From Vulcanimicrobiota bacterium (GTDB lineage Bacteria > Vulcanimicrobiota > JAJTBE01): a stretch of DNA of 64,000 nt. Location of the stretch: NCBI GenBank assembly GCA_021107945.1, contig JAIORV010000110.1:1-64000 (forward strand), written 5' to 3'. How positions within the stretch are numbered: the stretch's first letter is position 1; each line of letters starts with the position of its first letter. Position numbers and translations under genes: made by a program. This document shows positions 3,992 through 64,000 of this stretch, piece by piece. A model generated the notes under the pieces. It searched no databases. It was given only the letters and a program-made list of their open reading frames with translations, and was not told the DNA's origin.

Positions 3992-5890
3992 TTGACGATT
4001 AGTTTGAATACCAATTATTTGCATCCAAATCAAATAGGTCCCCGTCCTGATAAATATGCGCATATTCCACTTGAAATTCTATTTGGGAATCCGGAAAGAC
4101 AATGCCCGCTTATATCGCCTGACGGGAAAAAGATTGCATTCCTTGCGCCATATAAACACATAATGAATATCCATATAAATAATATTGACGGGGAAACCGC
4201 AAGAACATTAACACATTACAAAGAGAGGGGGATTCAGACATTCTTATGGCAATGGGACAGTTTACATATACTTTACCTCCGGGACAAAAACGGTGATGAA
4301 AATTGGCATTTATACCGGGCGGACATTGAAACCGGAGAAATAACAGACCTGACACCTTTCGAAGAAGTCAAGGCACAGATTGTGGCAATGAGCCCTGATG
4401 TGCCCAACAAGATTCTCATTGCACTGAATCTCAGGAAAAATGTTCATGATGTATATAGCATTGATCTGAATAGCGGCAAACTGGAGTTGGATACGGAAAA
4501 TCCGGGAGATGTTGCACGCTGGAATGCGGATAATGATCTGCAGGTGAGAATCGCCCAGGCAATACATCATACGGGAAGAAATGAAATCAGGATAAGAAAA
4601 GACAGGAATTCACCCTGGCGAAGGTTCAGGATGTGGATTCCCGATGAAGACCGGGGATCGGACGGAAATTTTGGCGATGTGGCCGGATTTAGCTCCGATA
4701 ATAACAAAATGTGGCTTATTTCAAGCGCGGGATACAACACAGCAAGACTCCTTCAGGTTGACCTGAAAACAGGCAAGGCAGTTGTATCAGGAAGTGATGC
4801 CGACTATGATGCCTGCGATGTATTAATCAATCCCTTCACTCACAAGTTATCGGCTTGCTGTTTTATCAGGGAGAAACAAGAATGGGATTTAATCGACAAA
4901 TCCCTTGAAACGGACTTTGTAAGAATAAGGGAATTCCGGGAAGGCATTTTCAATATAGCAAGCGGGGATATGAAGGACAGAATTTGGGTTATCGCATACG
5001 AATCGGATATTTCACCGGTTAGCTATTACATTTATATGAGAGACAGCAAGGAATTCAAGTTTCTTTTCTCTGAAAAACCCGGATTGGAAAAATATGAGCT
5101 TGCAGGGATGGATACGATTTCTTTCAAGTCCCGGGATGGATTGAAAATAAACGGTTACATAACTTTCCCCGTTGGATTGAAGCCTGCAAATCTCCCCACA
5201 GTTCTGCTTGTTCACAGCGGTCCGTGGATGAGAGATCGATGGGGCTTGAACCTTACTACGCAATGGCTTGCAAACAGGGGGTATATAGTTTTGCAGGTGA
5301 ATTACAGGGGGTCGATGGGATACGGAAAAGACTTCCTGGATGCAGGCAACAGGGAATGGGGAGGCAAAATGCTTAATGATTTGATTGATGCGAAGAGATG
5401 GGCGGTGTCAATGGGTTATTCAGATCCTGGCAGGTTTGCAATTATGGGGGCAAGTTACGGTGGATATGCCGTTCTCGCCGCGCTTGCATTTGCACCGGGA
5501 GAGTTTTCATGTGGTGTGGATATGTTCGGGCCGTCAAACCTTGTCAGTTTTCTCGAATCGATCCCTTCACATTGGAAGCCTATGAAAGCTTTCCTGGATA
5601 GAAGAATCGGACATCTTCAGACGGAGAAAGAATTTTTGAAATCAAGGTCTCCCCTATTCCATTCCGGAAATATCACATCACCCCTCATCATTGCGCAGGG
5701 CTCGAATGACCCCAGAGTTAAAAAGAGGGAGAGCGATCAGATGTTATCTGCGCTTCAGAATAACAATACCCCTGTAGAATACATTCTATATCCCGACGAA
5801 GGGCATGGCTTCTCCCTGGAAAAAAATCGCCTTGATTTTTATCGGAAAGTTGAAAGTTTCCTTGCAATATATCCTGGAGGTAACTATTGA
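3992..5890 (+). CDS. S9 family (prolyl oligopeptidase-type) serine peptidase
   Basis: This 632-residue protein has the S9 layout: an N-terminal beta-propeller region (WD40/PD40-like repeats such as SPDGKKIAF at residues ~43-51) and a C-terminal alpha/beta-hydrolase domain. The catalytic triad is visible: Ser488 in GASYGG, Asp573 in GSNDPR and His605 in DEGHGF, with the HSGPW oxyanion-side motif upstream. No signal peptide is seen, so it is probably cytoplasmic, cleaving short peptides in the manner of acylaminoacyl peptidases. The start is uncertain: TTG at 3992 directly abuts a GGAAAGG sequence, and a TTG at 4004 sits at a better distance from it. Size matches the family. It is flanked by the tandem repeat upstream and converges on the minus-strand response regulator. 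Confidence 0.93.
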   Translation: MTISLNTNYLHPNQIGPRPDKYAHIPLEILFGNPERQCPLISPDGKKIAFLAPYKHIMNIHINNIDGETARTLTHYKERGIQTFLWQWDSLHILYLRDKNGDENWHLYRADIETGEITDLTPFEEVKAQIVAMSPDVPNKILIALNLRKNVHDVYSIDLNSGKLELDTENPGDVARWNADNDLQVRIAQAIHHTGRNEIRIRKDRNSPWRRFRMWIPDEDRGSDGNFGDVAGFSSDNNKMWLISSAGYNTARLLQVDLKTGKAVVSGSDADYDACDVLINPFTHKLSACCFIREKQEWDLIDKSLETDFVRIREFREGIFNIASGDMKDRIWVIAYESDISPVSYYIYMRDSKEFKFLFSEKPGLEKYELAGMDTISFKSRDGLKINGYITFPVGLKPANLPTVLLVHSGPWMRDRWGLNLTTQWLANRGYIVLQVNYRGSMGYGKDFLDAGNREWGGKMLNDLIDAKRWAVSMGYSDPGRFAIMGASYGGYAVLAALAFAPGEFSCGVDMFGPSNLVSFLESIPSHWKPMKAFLDRRIGHLQTEKEFLKSRSPLFHSGNITSPLIIAQGSNDPRVKKRESDQMLSALQNNNTPVEYILYPDEGHGFSLEKNRLDFYRKVESFLAIYPGGNY

Positions 5891-6012: not shown

Positions 6013-7371
6013 TCAGGATGACGAACCTAAGCCATATTTCTTAACCTTCTCCCTCAATGTCTTCCTGTCTATTCCCAGTATCTCGGCGGCGTGGGTTTTA
6101 TTTCCGTCAACACTTTGAAGTACGTTCTTAATATGCTCGGTCTCAATATCGGCAAGCGTTCGATTCACTCCCATTCCCCTGTGAACCGAGAATCTCATGT
6201 GAGGTGAGAAATCCGGCACATCAATAATATCCCCGTCCGTCATGAGCACAAGCCTTCTTACAAGATTTTCCAATTCCCTGACATTTCCGGGCCATGAATA
6301 ATTAATGATAACCTGAAGTGCATTATCGGAAAACTTGAGTCCCGGCTTTTCAAATTCGTTGATAAATTTTGTCTTGAAATGATTCGCAAGGAGTATTATA
6401 TCTTCCCCTCTTTCTCTCAAAGGAGGCATATCAATAAGTATTACATTCAGCCTGTAATATAGATCTTCCCTGAATCTCTTTTTCCTGATCATTGATTGAA
6501 GGTCTTCGTTTGTAGCGGCGAGAATCCTGACATCAACCCTCCTGGAGCGGTCGGACCCCACCATACAGACCTCCTTATCCTGCAAAACTCTGAGAAGCTT
6601 TGCCTGCATCGGGAGACTTGTATTACTTACCTCGTCCAGGAAAATTGTCCCTTTCTCCGCTGTCTGGAAAAAACCGGCTCTTGCTTCTGTCGCTCCGGTA
6701 AACGCTCCCCTTATATGTCCGAATAATTCGCTTTCCAGGAGGTTCTCCGGTATCGCTCCGCAATTAACCGGCACAAATGGAGCCGATGCCCTGGGACTGT
6801 TATAATGAATTGCCCTCGCAACCAATTCTTTTCCAGTGCCGCTGTCTCCCGTTATAAGAGCCGTCGCAGATGTCGATGCAACCTTTGCAATTGCCCTGAA
6901 TACTTTTTGCATGCTCTTTGACTCGCCAATCAGCCCATAGTGTGATCCGGGTTCTATTGATGAACCGTCCTCCGCAGCTATACGCATTTTTAATTTATTC
7001 AATGCTTTCCTGACAGCGGAAAAAAGCTCTTCATCAGTAAAAGGCTTCGGGAGATACTCATCAGCCCCCGCCTTGACGGCTTCAACCGCCCCCTCAATAG
7101 TGGCATACCCGGTTATCATCATTGTTTCGGTGTCTTTATAGTTCTCCCTGATATGTCGGATCAAATTCAAACCGTTTGCCTCGGGCATTTTATAATCCGT
7201 TATAACAAGATCGATAGGTGTGGATTCGAGTATTCCAAGAGCCTCGGCAACCCCCGGCGCAGTAAAAATCCTGTATCCACAAGACAAGAGATTTCTTTGC
7301 AGCATCTCCAGTGTAAGCTCGGCATCATCCACTACAAGAATTTGTTCCTTATCAGCATCCTGGCTATTCAT
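6013..7371 (-). CDS. NtrC-family sigma-54 response regulator
   Basis: The 452-residue product has an N-terminal receiver domain (acidic pair VDD, phospho-acceptor Asp in VITDYKMP at about residue 59, Lys in PKPF), a central AAA+ sigma-54 activation domain (Walker A GDSGTGKE near 175-182, GAFTGA near 222-227, Walker B FLDE) and a C-terminal Fis-type helix-turn-helix (AAEILGIDRKTLREKVKKYG). It should activate RpoN-dependent promoters when phosphorylated. ATG at 7371 is chosen over GTG at 7380 because GGGAG sits eight bases before the ATG; the start overlaps the kinase stop codon by 8 bp, so the pair is probably translationally coupled. The last codons (SSS-stop) come from a TCATCCTGA repeat. 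The adjacent kinase is the obvious partner; target genes are not identifiable here. Confidence 0.95.
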   Translation of the reverse strand: MNSQDADKEQILVVDDAELTLEMLQRNLLSCGYRIFTAPGVAEALGILESTPIDLVITDYKMPEANGLNLIRHIRENYKDTETMMITGYATIEGAVEAVKAGADEYLPKPFTDEELFSAVRKALNKLKMRIAAEDGSSIEPGSHYGLIGESKSMQKVFRAIAKVASTSATALITGDSGTGKELVARAIHYNSPRASAPFVPVNCGAIPENLLESELFGHIRGAFTGATEARAGFFQTAEKGTIFLDEVSNTSLPMQAKLLRVLQDKEVCMVGSDRSRRVDVRILAATNEDLQSMIRKKRFREDLYYRLNVILIDMPPLRERGEDIILLANHFKTKFINEFEKPGLKFSDNALQVIINYSWPGNVRELENLVRRLVLMTDGDIIDVPDFSPHMRFSVHRGMGVNRTLADIETEHIKNVLQSVDGNKTHAAEILGIDRKTLREKVKKYGLGSSS

Positions 7372-9124
7372 CAGCAGCACTCCCGAAATCCTTTTTTGCC
7401 TTTATGGGCAATATAATTTCAAACTTCGAACCTTTTCCTATTTCGCTCTCGGCCCTTACAGAACCTCCATGAGCGGTAACTATTCCATGAACAACCGCAA
7501 GTCCCAATCCTGTTCCCTGGCCTACCTTCTTGGTTGTAAAAAACGGAAGGAATATCTGTTTCAGGACTTCTTCTTTTATTCCTGTGCCTGTATCATGAAC
7601 AACCAAAGATACATGTCCGTCAGTTTTATATGTTCTTACTGTGATTTTACCTCCTCTCCCCATTGCCTGCATTGCATTTACCACCAGGTTTATTACAACT
7701 TGGTTTATTTGCGAAGGATCGGCCTTTATCCGCGGTATCTCAGACGACAAATGCTTTTCAATTTCTATGCCTTCTTTCACCAGTCGGGATTCAAAGAAAA
7801 ACAGGGCATCTTCAACGATACTATTTAAATTCACTCTTATTTCACGGGTGGGCATCTGACGGGCAAAAGTCAGCAATTTCTTGACGATTTCTCTGCCATA
7901 AAGACTTGCCCTTACAATCTTTTCCATATCATTGGAAGCCTGGCCGGGGATTCCAGGGCATTTTTGCGCAAGTTGAGCGAAACCAAGTATGTTTGCGAGA
8001 GGCTCATTCAACTCATGCGCCACACCTGCCGCCAACTGCCCGATTGTGGCAAGTCTGTCGGCATGTCTTATCTGCTCCTGTAATTCCATTTTTTCTTTCT
8101 CGGCCTGCTTCTGTTCGAAAATAAATCCGACCTGCCTTGCCATCGAGTCAATGAGGGCTCTTTCCTCTTTCAGGAACAACACCGCTTCCAACTCAGGCTT
8201 CTTTCTTGTATAAGTTACTTCTATTGATCCCCGGATTTTTCCATTGATATTTACTTCCGCCCTGAGCTTTTCTCCGTTGTCGGTAAATCCCGGTGTTGAA
8301 TATATCTTGCCGTCAATTGTTATCCTTCCGTATGCGATTTCCGGATATTGCATAGCCCGAGGGATTAACCTGACAATCTTGTTTATTATCTCTTTCAAAT
8401 CCATTCCGGGACGGTTAAAAGTCTGGCATATACCATAAAGGCATCTTAATTCCTTTATTCTCTCCCGAAGGGCGGCGTGAGCCCGGCGATTGGCGACAGC
8501 CATACCCAGTATCTGTGCCGCATTTTGATATACCTCAATTACTTCCTTATTGAAGCCGATTTTTTCCTTGTTCTTGAAAATCAATATTCCAAAGTGTTTC
8601 CCCTTAATGAGGAAAGGTAAGACAAGTATGGAATTAAATCCGTCTTCAATCCGGATACGACAAAAATCCTCAATTTCTCCCACCTCATCATCAAGAAAGT
8701 AACATTTATCGGTGTCTGTGATAAGGAAACTTCCTTTTTGCAGATAATGCCGGGAGCTGGGATCAGAATAGCCTTGCATTATTTCATGACAAAGAGAATT
8801 TAATGACCGAATATTCCCATCATTCCTATAATTATCAGGGATCTTAGAATTAGTTTCTTCCAAAATTTCAAAAATGAATCTTTCCTTTGGATCGTCTTCT
8901 GCTTCCCATCGATATTTCAATCCCTCATCGGTCATCCATAGCTCAATAGCGTTACATCCGGATAATTCAATGAGCATTCTTGACATTTTCCTGAGACACT
9001 CTACTCTTGAAATTCCAAGATTAGCAAAATGAAAAATCTTCCGTGAAAAAGGTCCTAATTCTTTTAAAAGCTTTCTGGCACCTATAATATTTTTTGAATC
9101 AGTCAGTTCAATCACTCCATTCAA
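7364..9124 (-). CDS. GAF-domain sensor histidine kinase
   Basis: This kinase (about 586 residues) has an N-terminal GAF-like sensory region, a second GAF-like stretch, a coiled linker, a HisKA domain with the phospho-acceptor in GVAHELNEPL, and a HATPase with intact N (INLVVNAMQAM), G1 (HDTGTG) and G2 (GQGTGLGLAV) boxes. No membrane segments are seen, so it is a cytoplasmic sensor. It phosphorylates, most likely, the NtrC-type regulator it overlaps. The frame is open to 9190, but a consensus promoter lies at 9155-9183, inside that extension, so transcripts should begin near 9148; a TTG at 9122-9124 preceded by AGGGA is therefore taken as the start. Another in-frame GTG at 9113-9115 is possible. 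Confidence 0.92.
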   Translation of the reverse strand: MNGVIELTDSKNIIGARKLLKELGPFSRKIFHFANLGISRVECLRKMSRMLIELSGCNAIELWMTDEGLKYRWEAEDDPKERFIFEILEETNSKIPDNYRNDGNIRSLNSLCHEIMQGYSDPSSRHYLQKGSFLITDTDKCYFLDDEVGEIEDFCRIRIEDGFNSILVLPFLIKGKHFGILIFKNKEKIGFNKEVIEVYQNAAQILGMAVANRRAHAALRERIKELRCLYGICQTFNRPGMDLKEIINKIVRLIPRAMQYPEIAYGRITIDGKIYSTPGFTDNGEKLRAEVNINGKIRGSIEVTYTRKKPELEAVLFLKEERALIDSMARQVGFIFEQKQAEKEKMELQEQIRHADRLATIGQLAAGVAHELNEPLANILGFAQLAQKCPGIPGQASNDMEKIVRASLYGREIVKKLLTFARQMPTREIRVNLNSIVEDALFFFESRLVKEGIEIEKHLSSEIPRIKADPSQINQVVINLVVNAMQAMGRGGKITVRTYKTDGHVSLVVHDTGTGIKEEVLKQIFLPFFTTKKVGQGTGLGLAVVHGIVTAHGGSVRAESEIGKGSKFEIILPIKAKKDFGSAADE

Positions 9125-61341: not shown

Positions 61342-62694
61342 ATGGCGGAACCGGAGTCGGGAAAAAGATCCATCGGGTATTGGTCGGCGGTGGCTATCGG
61401 CGTTGGCGGCATGGTTGGAGGCGGTATCTTCGCCGTGCTGGGTTTAGCCGTCCAACTTGCGCACGGCGGGACATTTGTGGCGTTTTTTCTCGCGGGTATC
61501 GTTGCTCTCATAACTTCATATTCCTATGCAAAGCTCTCTGTGAAATTCCCCAGTAGGGGAGGCACGGTTGAATTTCTGAACCAGGCTTTCGGGACGGGAT
61601 TGTTTGCCGGCGGATCCAATATCCTTTTATGGTTGAGCTATGTTGTGATGTTATCCCTTTACTCTTATGCATTCGGCTGTTATGGATCCACATTTTTCCC
61701 CGCTGAAACTCAGCATATATGGAAACATATCCTTTTAAGCGCAATTGTTATTCTCCTGACGGGATTGAACGTAATAGGGGCAAAGGCCGTGGGAAAGCTC
61801 GAGAAATGGATAGTGGGTTTCAAACTGGCAATATTGCTTGTTTTTGTCGGCGTGGGATTATTTTATGTTGATTCACAAAGACTCGCCCCGTCCACCTGGG
61901 TGAATATTATTCCGCTGGTGGCGGGAGGGATGATTATTTTCGTCGCCTACGAGGGATTTGAACTTATAGCGAATACCGCCGAGGATATCGTGAACCCGGA
62001 AAAGACACTTCCCCGTGCATATTATTCCGCTGTCGGATTTGTTATATTTCTGTATATTTTAGTTGCAATAGTAACAGTAGGAAATCTGCCTGTGAGTCAA
62101 TTAATACACGCCAGGGACTACGCACTTGCCGCAGCCGCAAAGCCATTCATGGGGAATTTTGGCTTCATTCTGATTTCAATCGCCGCGCTCTTGTCAACAG
62201 GATCCGCCATAAATGCTACGCTATATGGCGCATCCCGAATAAGTTATATAATCGCCAGGGACGGTGAATTGCCGAAAGCGTTGGAGCATAATGTCTGGAA
62301 ACGACCTGTGGAGGGCTTGATTATTACGACAATCCTGACATTGCTGATGGCGAATCTTTTCAACCTGCACAGCATTTCAACAATGGGAAGCTCAGGCTTC
62401 CTTCTTATTTTCGCCGCAGTGAATTATTGCAACTTCAAGTTGAGCGATAAAACAGGCAGTGTGAAATGGATCCCCCTGCTCGGTGTTGCGGTCTGCCTTT
62501 TTGCCCTGGGAGCGCTTTTATGGCAAACCTGGATAACATCTCCGTGGAATGTCCTTGTACTCGTGGTCATGGTGGGAATATCTTTTGCGATTGAGATAAT
62601 TTACAGGAAGATCACCGGCAGGGAGATCAAATCCAACATGAGGATAGAAAAAAGCGATGGGGAAGACTCAAAAATCATGCAAAATGGGTCTTAA
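61342..62694 (+). CDS. APC-superfamily amino acid permease
   Basis: The 450-residue transporter has about twelve membrane segments, the APC start motif AIGVGGMVGGGIFAVLG and the Gly-rich EGFELIANTAEDIVNPEKTLPRA motif near residue 205. It probably takes up amino acids or related cations. ATG 61342 has GGAGTG six bases upstream; the longer frame from 61222 begins in the minisatellite and is rejected. Unlike the permease at 29.5-31.5 kb, it has no EIIA domain. Confidence 0.93.
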   Translation: MAEPESGKRSIGYWSAVAIGVGGMVGGGIFAVLGLAVQLAHGGTFVAFFLAGIVALITSYSYAKLSVKFPSRGGTVEFLNQAFGTGLFAGGSNILLWLSYVVMLSLYSYAFGCYGSTFFPAETQHIWKHILLSAIVILLTGLNVIGAKAVGKLEKWIVGFKLAILLVFVGVGLFYVDSQRLAPSTWVNIIPLVAGGMIIFVAYEGFELIANTAEDIVNPEKTLPRAYYSAVGFVIFLYILVAIVTVGNLPVSQLIHARDYALAAAAKPFMGNFGFILISIAALLSTGSAINATLYGASRISYIIARDGELPKALEHNVWKRPVEGLIITTILTLLMANLFNLHSISTMGSSGFLLIFAAVNYCNFKLSDKTGSVKWIPLLGVAVCLFALGALLWQTWITSPWNVLVLVVMVGISFAIEIIYRKITGREIKSNMRIEKSDGEDSKIMQNGS

Positions 62695-62708
62695 AAAGGG
62701 TTTTTAAG
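62690..62708 (+). terminator. AT-rich hairpin at permease 3' end
   Basis: CTTAAAAA (62690-62697), loop GGG, TTTTTAAG (62701-62708), then GGGTTTTG. The stem is purely A-T apart from one pair and overlaps the stop codon, so its strength as a terminator is doubtful. Confidence 0.35.
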
Positions 62709-62814
62709 GGTTTTGTGAAAATTAGAAAAATAATTGTTGGTTTTGACCTGAAGCTTATTCATCCAAAAAATCTCAATTCTATCAGAGGATCTAAAAGACT
62801 TTTTATAAACAGTT

Positions 62815-63090
62815 ATGGAATTCACAAATAAAAGAAAAAAAGAAAAGCCCGATACAATGCAATTGGCTATGTTTTACGAGAAAAATATAAATTTAGTCAA
62901 TTTAAGAGAAGCAACCAAATGGGCATCTAAATATTTGGGACGCACTGTTACGACTTCAAATATATCGTATTTGATTCAATATGGGCGTATAAAAAGGCAT
63001 GGAAGTAACGGCATGCTTGATATAGACATTTCTGCGTTTAATGTGCTAATTTCAAATGCCAAGATCTATAAGTACGAGGTGAGAATATGA
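62815..63090 (+). CDS. Small HTH protein of the kind found with type II restriction-modification systems
   Basis: The 91-residue basic protein reads LVNLREATKWASKYLGRTVTTSNISYLIQYGRIKRHGSNGMLDIDISAF. The pattern EAxxWASxYLxxxVTxSNISYLIQYGRIKK...G is the DNA-binding or adaptor domain common at the N-terminus of, or next to, DNA methyltransferases of restriction systems. Here it is encoded separately. Its stop overlaps the next start by 4 bp (ATGA). Region is AT-rich compared with the rest of the window. Family memory is moderate; function inferred. Confidence 0.72.
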   Translation: MEFTNKRKKEKPDTMQLAMFYEKNINLVNLREATKWASKYLGRTVTTSNISYLIQYGRIKRHGSNGMLDIDISAFNVLISNAKIYKYEVRI

Positions 63091-63293
63091 AGAATTATGA
63101 AGTATTGCTTACACGGTCATATATAGTTGCAATTCAAGCAGAAAATGAAGACCAAGCACTTCGATATACTGAATTTTATCTTGGTGATTGTCCTGATTTG
63201 TCGAAACCTAAGGATAGGAGGGAGCAAAAATTCAAAATTAAAGAAATAGAAATGACTATTAATGAGGCATTTGAATTAAAAGAAATAATTTGA
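63087..63293 (+). CDS. Small hypothetical protein, defence-locus context
   Basis: The 68-residue acidic protein (NYEVLLTRSYIVAIQAENEDQALRYTEFYLGDCPDLS...) overlaps the upstream HTH gene by 4 bp and precedes the EVE-nuclease gene by 11 bp, so it is likely co-translated with both. No domain is recognised, although short proteins starting YxVxIxAxNxxxA are frequent in restriction and phage-related clusters. No function can be assigned. Confidence 0.6.
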   Translation: MKNYEVLLTRSYIVAIQAENEDQALRYTEFYLGDCPDLSKPKDRREQKFKIKEIEMTINEAFELKEII

Positions 63294-63304: not shown

Positions 63305-64000
63305 ATGAGAAACTTTTGGATTGTACCGGGTTCAGAAAAAAATTGGAGACAATCACTTACCTCGAAGGGAATATGGGGTCTTGAAGATACCCTGTTTAAA
63401 AAACTTCATTGGTTAGCGATTAAACCAAATGATATAATACTGTTTTATGTGACTGGTAAAGTTAAAGGCATAGTTGGATATGGAATTGTCAGGAGTACAT
63501 TCTACCAAGATATTCCTTTATGGGATGATGAAATACGAGAAAGGCGTGTAAAGTGGCCTCTTAGGTTTGAATTTGATATAGATTTTATTTTGCCTCAAAA
63601 CACATGGGATGATGAAAATATTTCAATACCTGGAGGAGGAAGTTTCAGACAACCGTTGATATTGAAAAATTGGGAAGATGTAAAACCATTAATTCAAGCT
63701 TTGAATCCCAACATTTCGGTGGATTCTTTATATGAGATTTCTATCCCGGAAATGCCTGTCAAAGCAGAGATAGTTTCCCCAAAACACGAAGATATTAAAA
63801 ACTTATTACTGGAAATTGGAAAATTACAAGCGTATGTTGCTAATGCTGAATATCCAATGGGATTAAAAAGATTAGATGTTGTATGGAGGAGACTTCCAGA
63901 ATCTGTTCCGACATATGTTTTTGAGGTACAGGTAAGTGGTGATTTATATCACGCATTAGGAAAACTAAAACATGCTTATGACCTTTGGAATAGCCGTATT
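63305..64000 (+). CDS. EVE domain plus PD-(D/E)XK nuclease protein (truncated by window edge)
   Basis: Open from the ATG at 63305 to the edge, 232 codons with no stop. The N-terminal ~130 residues show EVE (PUA-like) features: NFWIVPGSEKNW at the start, WLAIKPNDIILFYVTGKVKGIVGYGIV and a WPLRFEFDIDFILP strand; EVE domains read modified bases. The C-terminal part (LLLEIGKLQAY...LDVVWRRLP...YVFEVQVSGDLYHALGKL) has the D-x(n)-E-x-Q pattern of a PD-(D/E)XK nuclease. This combination suggests a modification-dependent restriction nuclease. The remainder of the gene lies beyond the window. Confidence 0.8.
   Translation, partial: MRNFWIVPGSEKNWRQSLTSKGIWGLEDTLFKKLHWLAIKPNDIILFYVTGKVKGIVGYGIVRSTFYQDIPLWDDEIRERRVKWPLRFEFDIDFILPQNTWDDENISIPGGGSFRQPLILKNWEDVKPLIQALNPNISVDSLYEISIPEMPVKAEIVSPKHEDIKNLLLEIGKLQAYVANAEYPMGLKRLDVVWRRLPESVPTYVFEVQVSGDLYHALGKLKHAYDLWNSRI

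Follow-up and report, generated by a model that had tools for sequence, protein, structure and literature searches.

The window analyzed here, i.e., the whole stretch of 64,000 nucleotides, comprises bases 1 to 64000 of a contig from a 5.6-Mb draft genome. At its right end lies an intact gene on the plus strand (63305 to 64000, continuing to contig position 64171), whose 288-amino-acid product, P0001, was predicted to consist of a modified-base reader domain of the EVE type and a nuclease-like domain. The open reading frame starts with ATG at 63305, with an in-frame TTG at 63290 as an alternative start, and runs uninterrupted for 288 codons. As an earlier note on this DNA had stated, the gene runs off the window; the stop codon lies 171 bases outside, at contig position 64171, and the full gene was readable because the contig extends to 68294. 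The gene is under purifying selection, with dN/dS values of about 0.11 to 0.13 against the copies at two other loci described below (L007 and L008).

The N-terminal domain (63305 to 63709), which belongs to the PUA superfamily and probably extends to about residue 135, was assigned by a Pfam search to EVE (PF01878) at residues 3 to 74, with an E value of 2.4e-6 and 28 bits against a gathering cutoff of 23. This search, proposed in the earlier note, confirmed its claim of an EVE domain. Besides, EVE was matched by 15 of 22 aligned homologues, and a profile of 18 homologues retrieved the archaeal EVE protein PH1033 (PDB 1wmm, 2hd9, and 2zbn; E value of 1.5e-4) and, weakly, YTH domains.

The C-terminal domain (63782 to 64000; residues ca. 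160 to 288, ending at contig position 64168) was delimited by residue conservation and a weak structural model, and it gave no match in Pfam, NCBIfam, PADLOC, PHROGs, or PDB profiles. A PDB search with the nuclease part alone also gave no match, and no HNH domain was matched in P0001 in Pfam or NCBIfam. Across 21 diverged homologues, an alignment of shallow depth, G172, D191, W194, F206, and E207 (P0001 numbering) were invariant, and H161, I171, E182, V208, G212, L221, and G250 were nearly so. We infer that E182-x8-D191-x15-E207-x-Q209 forms a PD-(D/E)XK-type site in which Gln replaces the usual Lys; candidate catalytic residues would be D191 (63875 to 63877), E207 (63923 to 63925), and Q209 (63929 to 63931), plus E182 and K220/K222. 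An AlphaFold model of P0001, which was of low confidence (8 sequences; mean pLDDT of 63; pTM of 0.45), contained a helix (161 to 175), a strand (189 to 195), a strand pairing (208 to 209), a second helix (214 to 228), and a further strand (231 to 236). The modeled alpha-beta-(beta)-alpha-beta order appears to fit a PD-(D/E)XK core, although the model is too weak to serve as proof. Thus, the PD-(D/E)XK-like domain claimed in the earlier note is suggested by the conserved E...D...E-x-Q residues and the modeled order, although neither profile nor PDB searches recognized it.

The same nuclease domain was observed with other N termini in five genes (L068:5273-5983, L031:4985-6070, L032:3063-4136, L052:5383-6279, and L053:5217-5966). 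In L068 it was fused to Mrr_N (PF14338; E value of 3e-12), whereas the N termini in the other four were not recognized. Mrr_N is a domain of the type IV enzyme Mrr, and this fusion fits sensor swapping among modification-dependent enzymes.

Directly upstream of the EVE-nuclease gene lie two short genes on the plus strand that overlap (62815 to 63090 and 63087 to 63293), as the earlier note had described. The first, which the note had taken for an HTH gene, encodes a 91-amino-acid relic (P0002) of the N terminus of a TdeIII-type DNA methyltransferase and matched a type II methyltransferase in PADLOC with an E value of 2.5e-14. Against the intact 542-amino-acid methyltransferase P0009 of a viral contig (L069), P0002 aligned in two pieces, to residues 17 to 59 and 158 to 190 of P0009. 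Its residues 24 to 66 correspond to the HTH-like N-terminal part of P0009 (residues 17 to 59) and are joined in frame to the segment that follows motif I ('IDISAFNVLISNAKIYKYEV'); the middle, including SAM motif I, is absent, and the catalytic motif is also missing. Because P0002 aligns to two separate N-terminal parts of a methyltransferase, a stand-alone HTH regulator was ruled out. The second gene, the first of the cassette, encodes a protein of 68 amino acids (P0003) that is indeed acidic (pI 4.9), as had been claimed. P0003 could not be assigned to a family by Pfam, PADLOC, or PHROGs, and no match was found among plasmids. Its homologues were found only in L007 (79% identical) and L008 (68%), each directly before the EVE-nuclease gene, so that these loci share the 68-amino-acid gene with the window locus (L002). 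The NG86 dN/dS of P0003 was 0.3 to 0.4 in a short alignment.

Beyond the window, the EVE-nuclease gene is followed by the C-terminal half of a TdeIII restriction endonuclease (contig positions 64187 to 64576; PF09520; E value of 2.3e-42; profile positions 134 to 242 of 242), which has TAA at its residual start where L007 has AAA. The remains on both sides, one from the methylase (M) and one from the endonuclease (R), thus belong to the TdeIII family of type II restriction-modification (R-M) systems. Neither an intact methyltransferase nor a full-length endonuclease, as expected of a functional TdeIII system, is present, and no active cognate methyltransferase adjoins P0001 at this locus, where the only one is the 91-residue relic. 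Judged from its predicted products, the R-M system at the window locus is dead, and both M and R are nonfunctional remnants.

These remnants and the cassette form an AT-rich island of ca. 1.8 kb (33.5% GC versus 42.4% for the window), in agreement with the AT-rich composition noted earlier, bounded by an amino acid permease gene on the left and a PgpH-like 7TM-HD gene on the right. The earlier note had further supposed the beginning of a defense island and proposed extending the contig to the right in search of methyltransferase, McrB-like GTPase, or further nuclease genes. The 4.3 kb of contig past the window carry the TdeIII fragment, the PgpH-like gene, and a membrane protein gene without a Pfam match. 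Methyltransferase and nuclease partners were therefore found, the former upstream, but only as broken remains; no McrB-like partner was found on the contig. The idea of an extended defense island does not hold, since the island spans only ca. 1.8 kb and no further defense genes follow downstream. The genes further upstream encode VWA, TPR, DsrE, glycosyltransferase-like (PMT_2), and amino acid permease proteins. Housekeeping neighbors alone, which the note had named as evidence against its reading, were half borne out, since R-M genes adjoin the EVE-nuclease gene only as broken remains.

A direct repeat of 111 bp, which covers the 3' terminus of the permease gene plus downstream sequence, occurs on the left at 62611 to 62721 (plus strand) and again, imperfectly (84% identical), at contig positions 64629 to 64739, beyond the window. 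It resembles the long target duplications reported to accompany R-M insertions (Nobusato et al. 2000, cited in PMC2614495) but may instead be left over from a tandem duplication of the permease gene. No convincing long target duplication was found at the ten other EVE-nuclease loci tested. The match in L051 was only 28 bp, and that in L030 (WOR-3 phylum) fell in two paralogous glycosyltransferase-like genes (4345 to 5367 and 7403 to 8470), between which the Tsp45I/EVE island of L030 is located, an arrangement that loosely recalls the duplicated permease end.

A scan of 84,980 species genomes yielded seven relatives of P0001. Two of them, from a Zixibacteria MAG (L007) and a WOR-3 MAG (L008), were both 81% identical, one from Stahlbacteria (L013) was 58% identical, and the other four were 41 to 44% identical; the window's own phylum contributed one relative (44%) among its other genomes searched. 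Horizontal acquisition, as proposed in the earlier note, is well supported by this distribution. Most relatives are on MAG contigs, and that of L007 is just 6.2 kb and possibly misbinned, so that its phylum is uncertain. Further whole-genome searches with the protein or its alignment gave more, bringing the total to 17 full-length EVE-nuclease genes from several phyla, including the gene of the window, and no relatives were found in phages, plasmids, or viral contigs, so that no phage-borne version was found.

Eight of the 17 genes adjoin type II R-M genes, belonging to the TdeIII (four loci), EcoO109I (two), Tsp45I (one), and ThaI (one) families. At the remaining nine, no adjoining R-M gene was recognized by profile or by eye, small neighbors having been searched in part; one of them (L067) has a methyltransferase gene ca. 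3 kb away on the other strand. The gene order in L007, L008, and L013 was that of the window, i.e., an N-terminal methyltransferase fragment, the EVE-nuclease gene, and a C-terminal TdeIII fragment, and the junctions lie at identical points in L002, L007, and L008. In L007, the methyltransferase fragment (194 amino acids; PDLC03249, 7 to 185 of 541) ends at residue 190 of the intact 542-residue enzyme, and the endonuclease sequence begins again near residue 130 of an intact 276-residue relative. The Tsp45I locus, L030, has the same M-5'/EVE/R-3' order: an N-terminal methyltransferase fragment (PDLC03354, 60 to 199 of 425), a 65-amino-acid gene, the EVE-nuclease gene, and a C-terminal Tsp45I fragment (169 to 260 of 260). 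In the TdeIII and Tsp45I cases, the cassette thus stands where the 3' portion of the methylase gene and the 5' portion of the endonuclease gene would be. In L051 (Chloroflexota), a mostly intact methyltransferase gene (9 to 248 of 336) and a ThaI fragment (48 to 100 of 203) precede the EVE-nuclease gene, and a gene of the EcoO109I family follows it in L011 (directly; full length) and L065 (partial). The replaced R-M families number at least two by the M-5'/R-3' arrangement and four by adjacency. The full-length EcoO109I-family gene (L011:7869-8603) has no adjoining methyltransferase gene and may be an orphan or depend on a distant methylase.

Intact TdeIII R-M examples were found in L069, L073, and L014, and L069 has M and R without the cassette. 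The complete unit in L069, an IMG/VR contig (4645 to 8220), comprises a controller-like HTH gene, a single methyltransferase gene for 542 amino acids, and two tandem TdeIII-family endonuclease genes (6587 to 7390 and 7390 to 8220) whose products are ca. 24% identical to each other.

Comparison of L007 with L008 indicated different ages for the cassette and its flanks. Among codons for the same residue, 43 of 305 differed in the cassette (68-amino-acid and EVE-nuclease genes), compared with 66 of 116 in the methyltransferase flank (Fisher P = 8e-18) and 42 of 87 in the TdeIII flank (P = 2e-10). The NG86 dS of the EVE-nuclease gene was 0.25, whereas the flanks were saturated, with mostly synonymous divergence (dN of 0.16 for TdeIII). 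The contrast was smaller with the window copy (P = 2e-4 against L007 and 0.002 against L008) and not significant at 4-fold sites alone. By synonymous change in L007 and L008, the EVE cassette is far younger than its R-M flanks, which argues that it moved independently, and the saturated, mostly synonymous divergence of the flanks implies that these were functional genes while diverging and that they separated well before the cassettes. Two histories would fit: separate entries of the cassette into already diverged TdeIII systems at corresponding points, or its exchange by recombination between cassette-bearing loci. Trees of the short flanks did not discriminate between the two and did not demonstrate an independent origin of the flanks: L002, L007, and L008 formed one clade for TdeIII (support of 84/84), and a single clade of cassette-bearing loci was not rejected for the methyltransferase (p-AU of 0.18). 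A single insertion with later exchange of the cassette would therefore accommodate the trees.

With regard to function, proteins combining an EVE reader with a PD(D/E)XK-type nuclease, as P0001 does, are a described class of type IV enzymes with a predicted role in restricting modified DNA (Bell, Wolf, and Koonin 2020, PMC7641849); the available part of that census gives no account of replacement of type II R-M cores, unlike the loci described here. VcaM4I (PMC7897488) likewise has an N-terminal EVE reader, which recognizes 5mC and 5hmC by base flipping, and a C-terminal nuclease, although its nuclease is HNH whereas that of P0001 is predicted to be PD-(D/E)XK-like. The modification-dependent restriction enzyme suggested in the earlier note is still the best functional guess, given the EVE domain and the conserved E...D...E-x-Q residues. 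On sequence grounds, we consider it probable that P0001 is a modification-dependent (type IV) restriction endonuclease that moves as a small cassette replacing R-M cores. Against this reading stand the negative profile and PDB searches for the nuclease fold, the Gln at the position of the usual Lys, the flank trees, the weaker age contrast in pairs with the window copy, the nine loci at which no adjoining R-M gene was recognized, the apparently intact EcoO109I-family gene in L011, and the mostly intact methyltransferase gene in L051.

By analogy with VcaM4I, a modified base would be flipped out and recognized by the EVE domain, and cleavage of the DNA would fall to the C-terminal PD-(D/E)XK-like domain. 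The cassette, at the window together with the 68-amino-acid partner gene, would travel as a small unit, and one substitution across the M-R junction would remove methylase and nuclease and install the new enzyme in one step; the target of restriction in the host would then shift from unmodified to modified DNA. Such a one-step swap might be workable because a host that lost only the methylase would be attacked by its own endonuclease, and one that kept the methylase active could be attacked by the incoming enzyme.

A comparable choice is seen in Streptococcus pneumoniae, where the whole DpnI and DpnII loci reportedly alternate by exchange at the same locus. Strains of this species have either an enzyme against methylated DNA or an R-M system against unmethylated DNA (PMC3573125), as in the proposed swap, although the reader domain is unrelated, and at the loci described here the breakpoints fall within the M and R genes, of which remnants persist. 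Conflicts between a methylase and an enzyme against modified DNA have been described (PMC2614495 and PMC8989522). In Pectobacterium (PMC8989522), the lethal conflict between the methylase of the PcaRCI R-M system and the modification-dependent endonuclease PcaRCII represents the pressure invoked here, but it was resolved by silencing of the nuclease promoter, whereas here the R-M genes were lost. McrBC homologues, too, apparently inserted as a modification-dependent nuclease in an R-M gene complex (Fukuda et al. 2008, PMC2614495, Fig. 8), although McrBC, a GTPase plus a nuclease, is another enzyme class, and the available text reports insertion and describes no loss of the 3' part of M or the 5' part of R.

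How the broken R-M genes arose may be explained in other ways. Defense genes cluster and degenerate; under such ordinary decay, the EVE-nuclease gene was once a third gene beside an intact R-M system, parts of which were later lost by unrelated deletions, and itself persisted by chance or because it was useful in its own right. Loss of R-M genes is common. At the window locus, the methyltransferase relic lacks a further 97 codons and the TdeIII remnant contains a TAA; both fragments of L008 carry stops, and at nine loci the EVE-nuclease gene stands alone. Nevertheless, no intact M-EVE-R arrangement was seen among the loci examined, and unrelated deletions would hardly account for the same junction points in L002, L007, and L008 or for a cassette younger than its flanks. 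Besides, the N-terminal half of TdeIII was kept in none of the four genes beside EVE but in 18 of 19 elsewhere (Fisher P = 6e-4, a value overstated because the four are related). We regard decay as unlikely, though not negligibly so. One ancient insertion into a TdeIII system, whose M and R fragments remained functional proteins within a system of four genes while cassettes were later exchanged by homologous recombination, would explain the shared junctions at three loci, the weak grouping of the TdeIII flanks, and their mostly synonymous divergence. It would also suit L007, where the four ORFs are all open and closely spaced or overlapping and the TdeIII fragment retains D...DxK. Working fragments are, however, difficult to reconcile with the stops or deletions in the window and L008 copies and with a methyltransferase fragment lacking the catalytic motif, which makes this account highly improbable.

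It is also conceivable, at a similarly slim chance, that P0001 is not a DNA restriction enzyme and either targets modified RNA or is the toxin of a toxin-antitoxin pair with the 68-amino-acid protein. RNA binding is common among EVE and YTH domains, predicted toxin-antitoxin systems include EVE domains (PMC7641849), the E-x-Q active site is atypical, and a small acidic partner gene precedes the EVE-nuclease gene. This partner is limited to three loci, whereas R-M neighbors recur, and the junction of the same nuclease domain to Mrr_N in L068 also argues for DNA restriction. Returning to the replacement of R-M cores by a type IV cassette, a bolder version may be proposed, which we hold only tentatively and think rather doubtful: EVE-nuclease cassettes would be specialized mobile elements that repeatedly and independently recombine into the M-R junctions of several type II families, disabling both genes at once, so that a locus that had excluded unmodified DNA would come to exclude modified DNA.

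We found no description in the open-access literature of a single-gene EVE-nuclease cassette repeatedly replacing type II R-M cores. The nuclease domain lies outside the profile libraries searched and occurs with at least two sensor types (EVE and Mrr_N), and orphan fragments of M or R genes are suggested as a guide to modification-dependent enzymes. These loci offer a concrete route by which bacteria may pass between opposite restriction strategies, against unmodified or against modified DNA, without self-killing, namely, a single substitution across the M-R junction.
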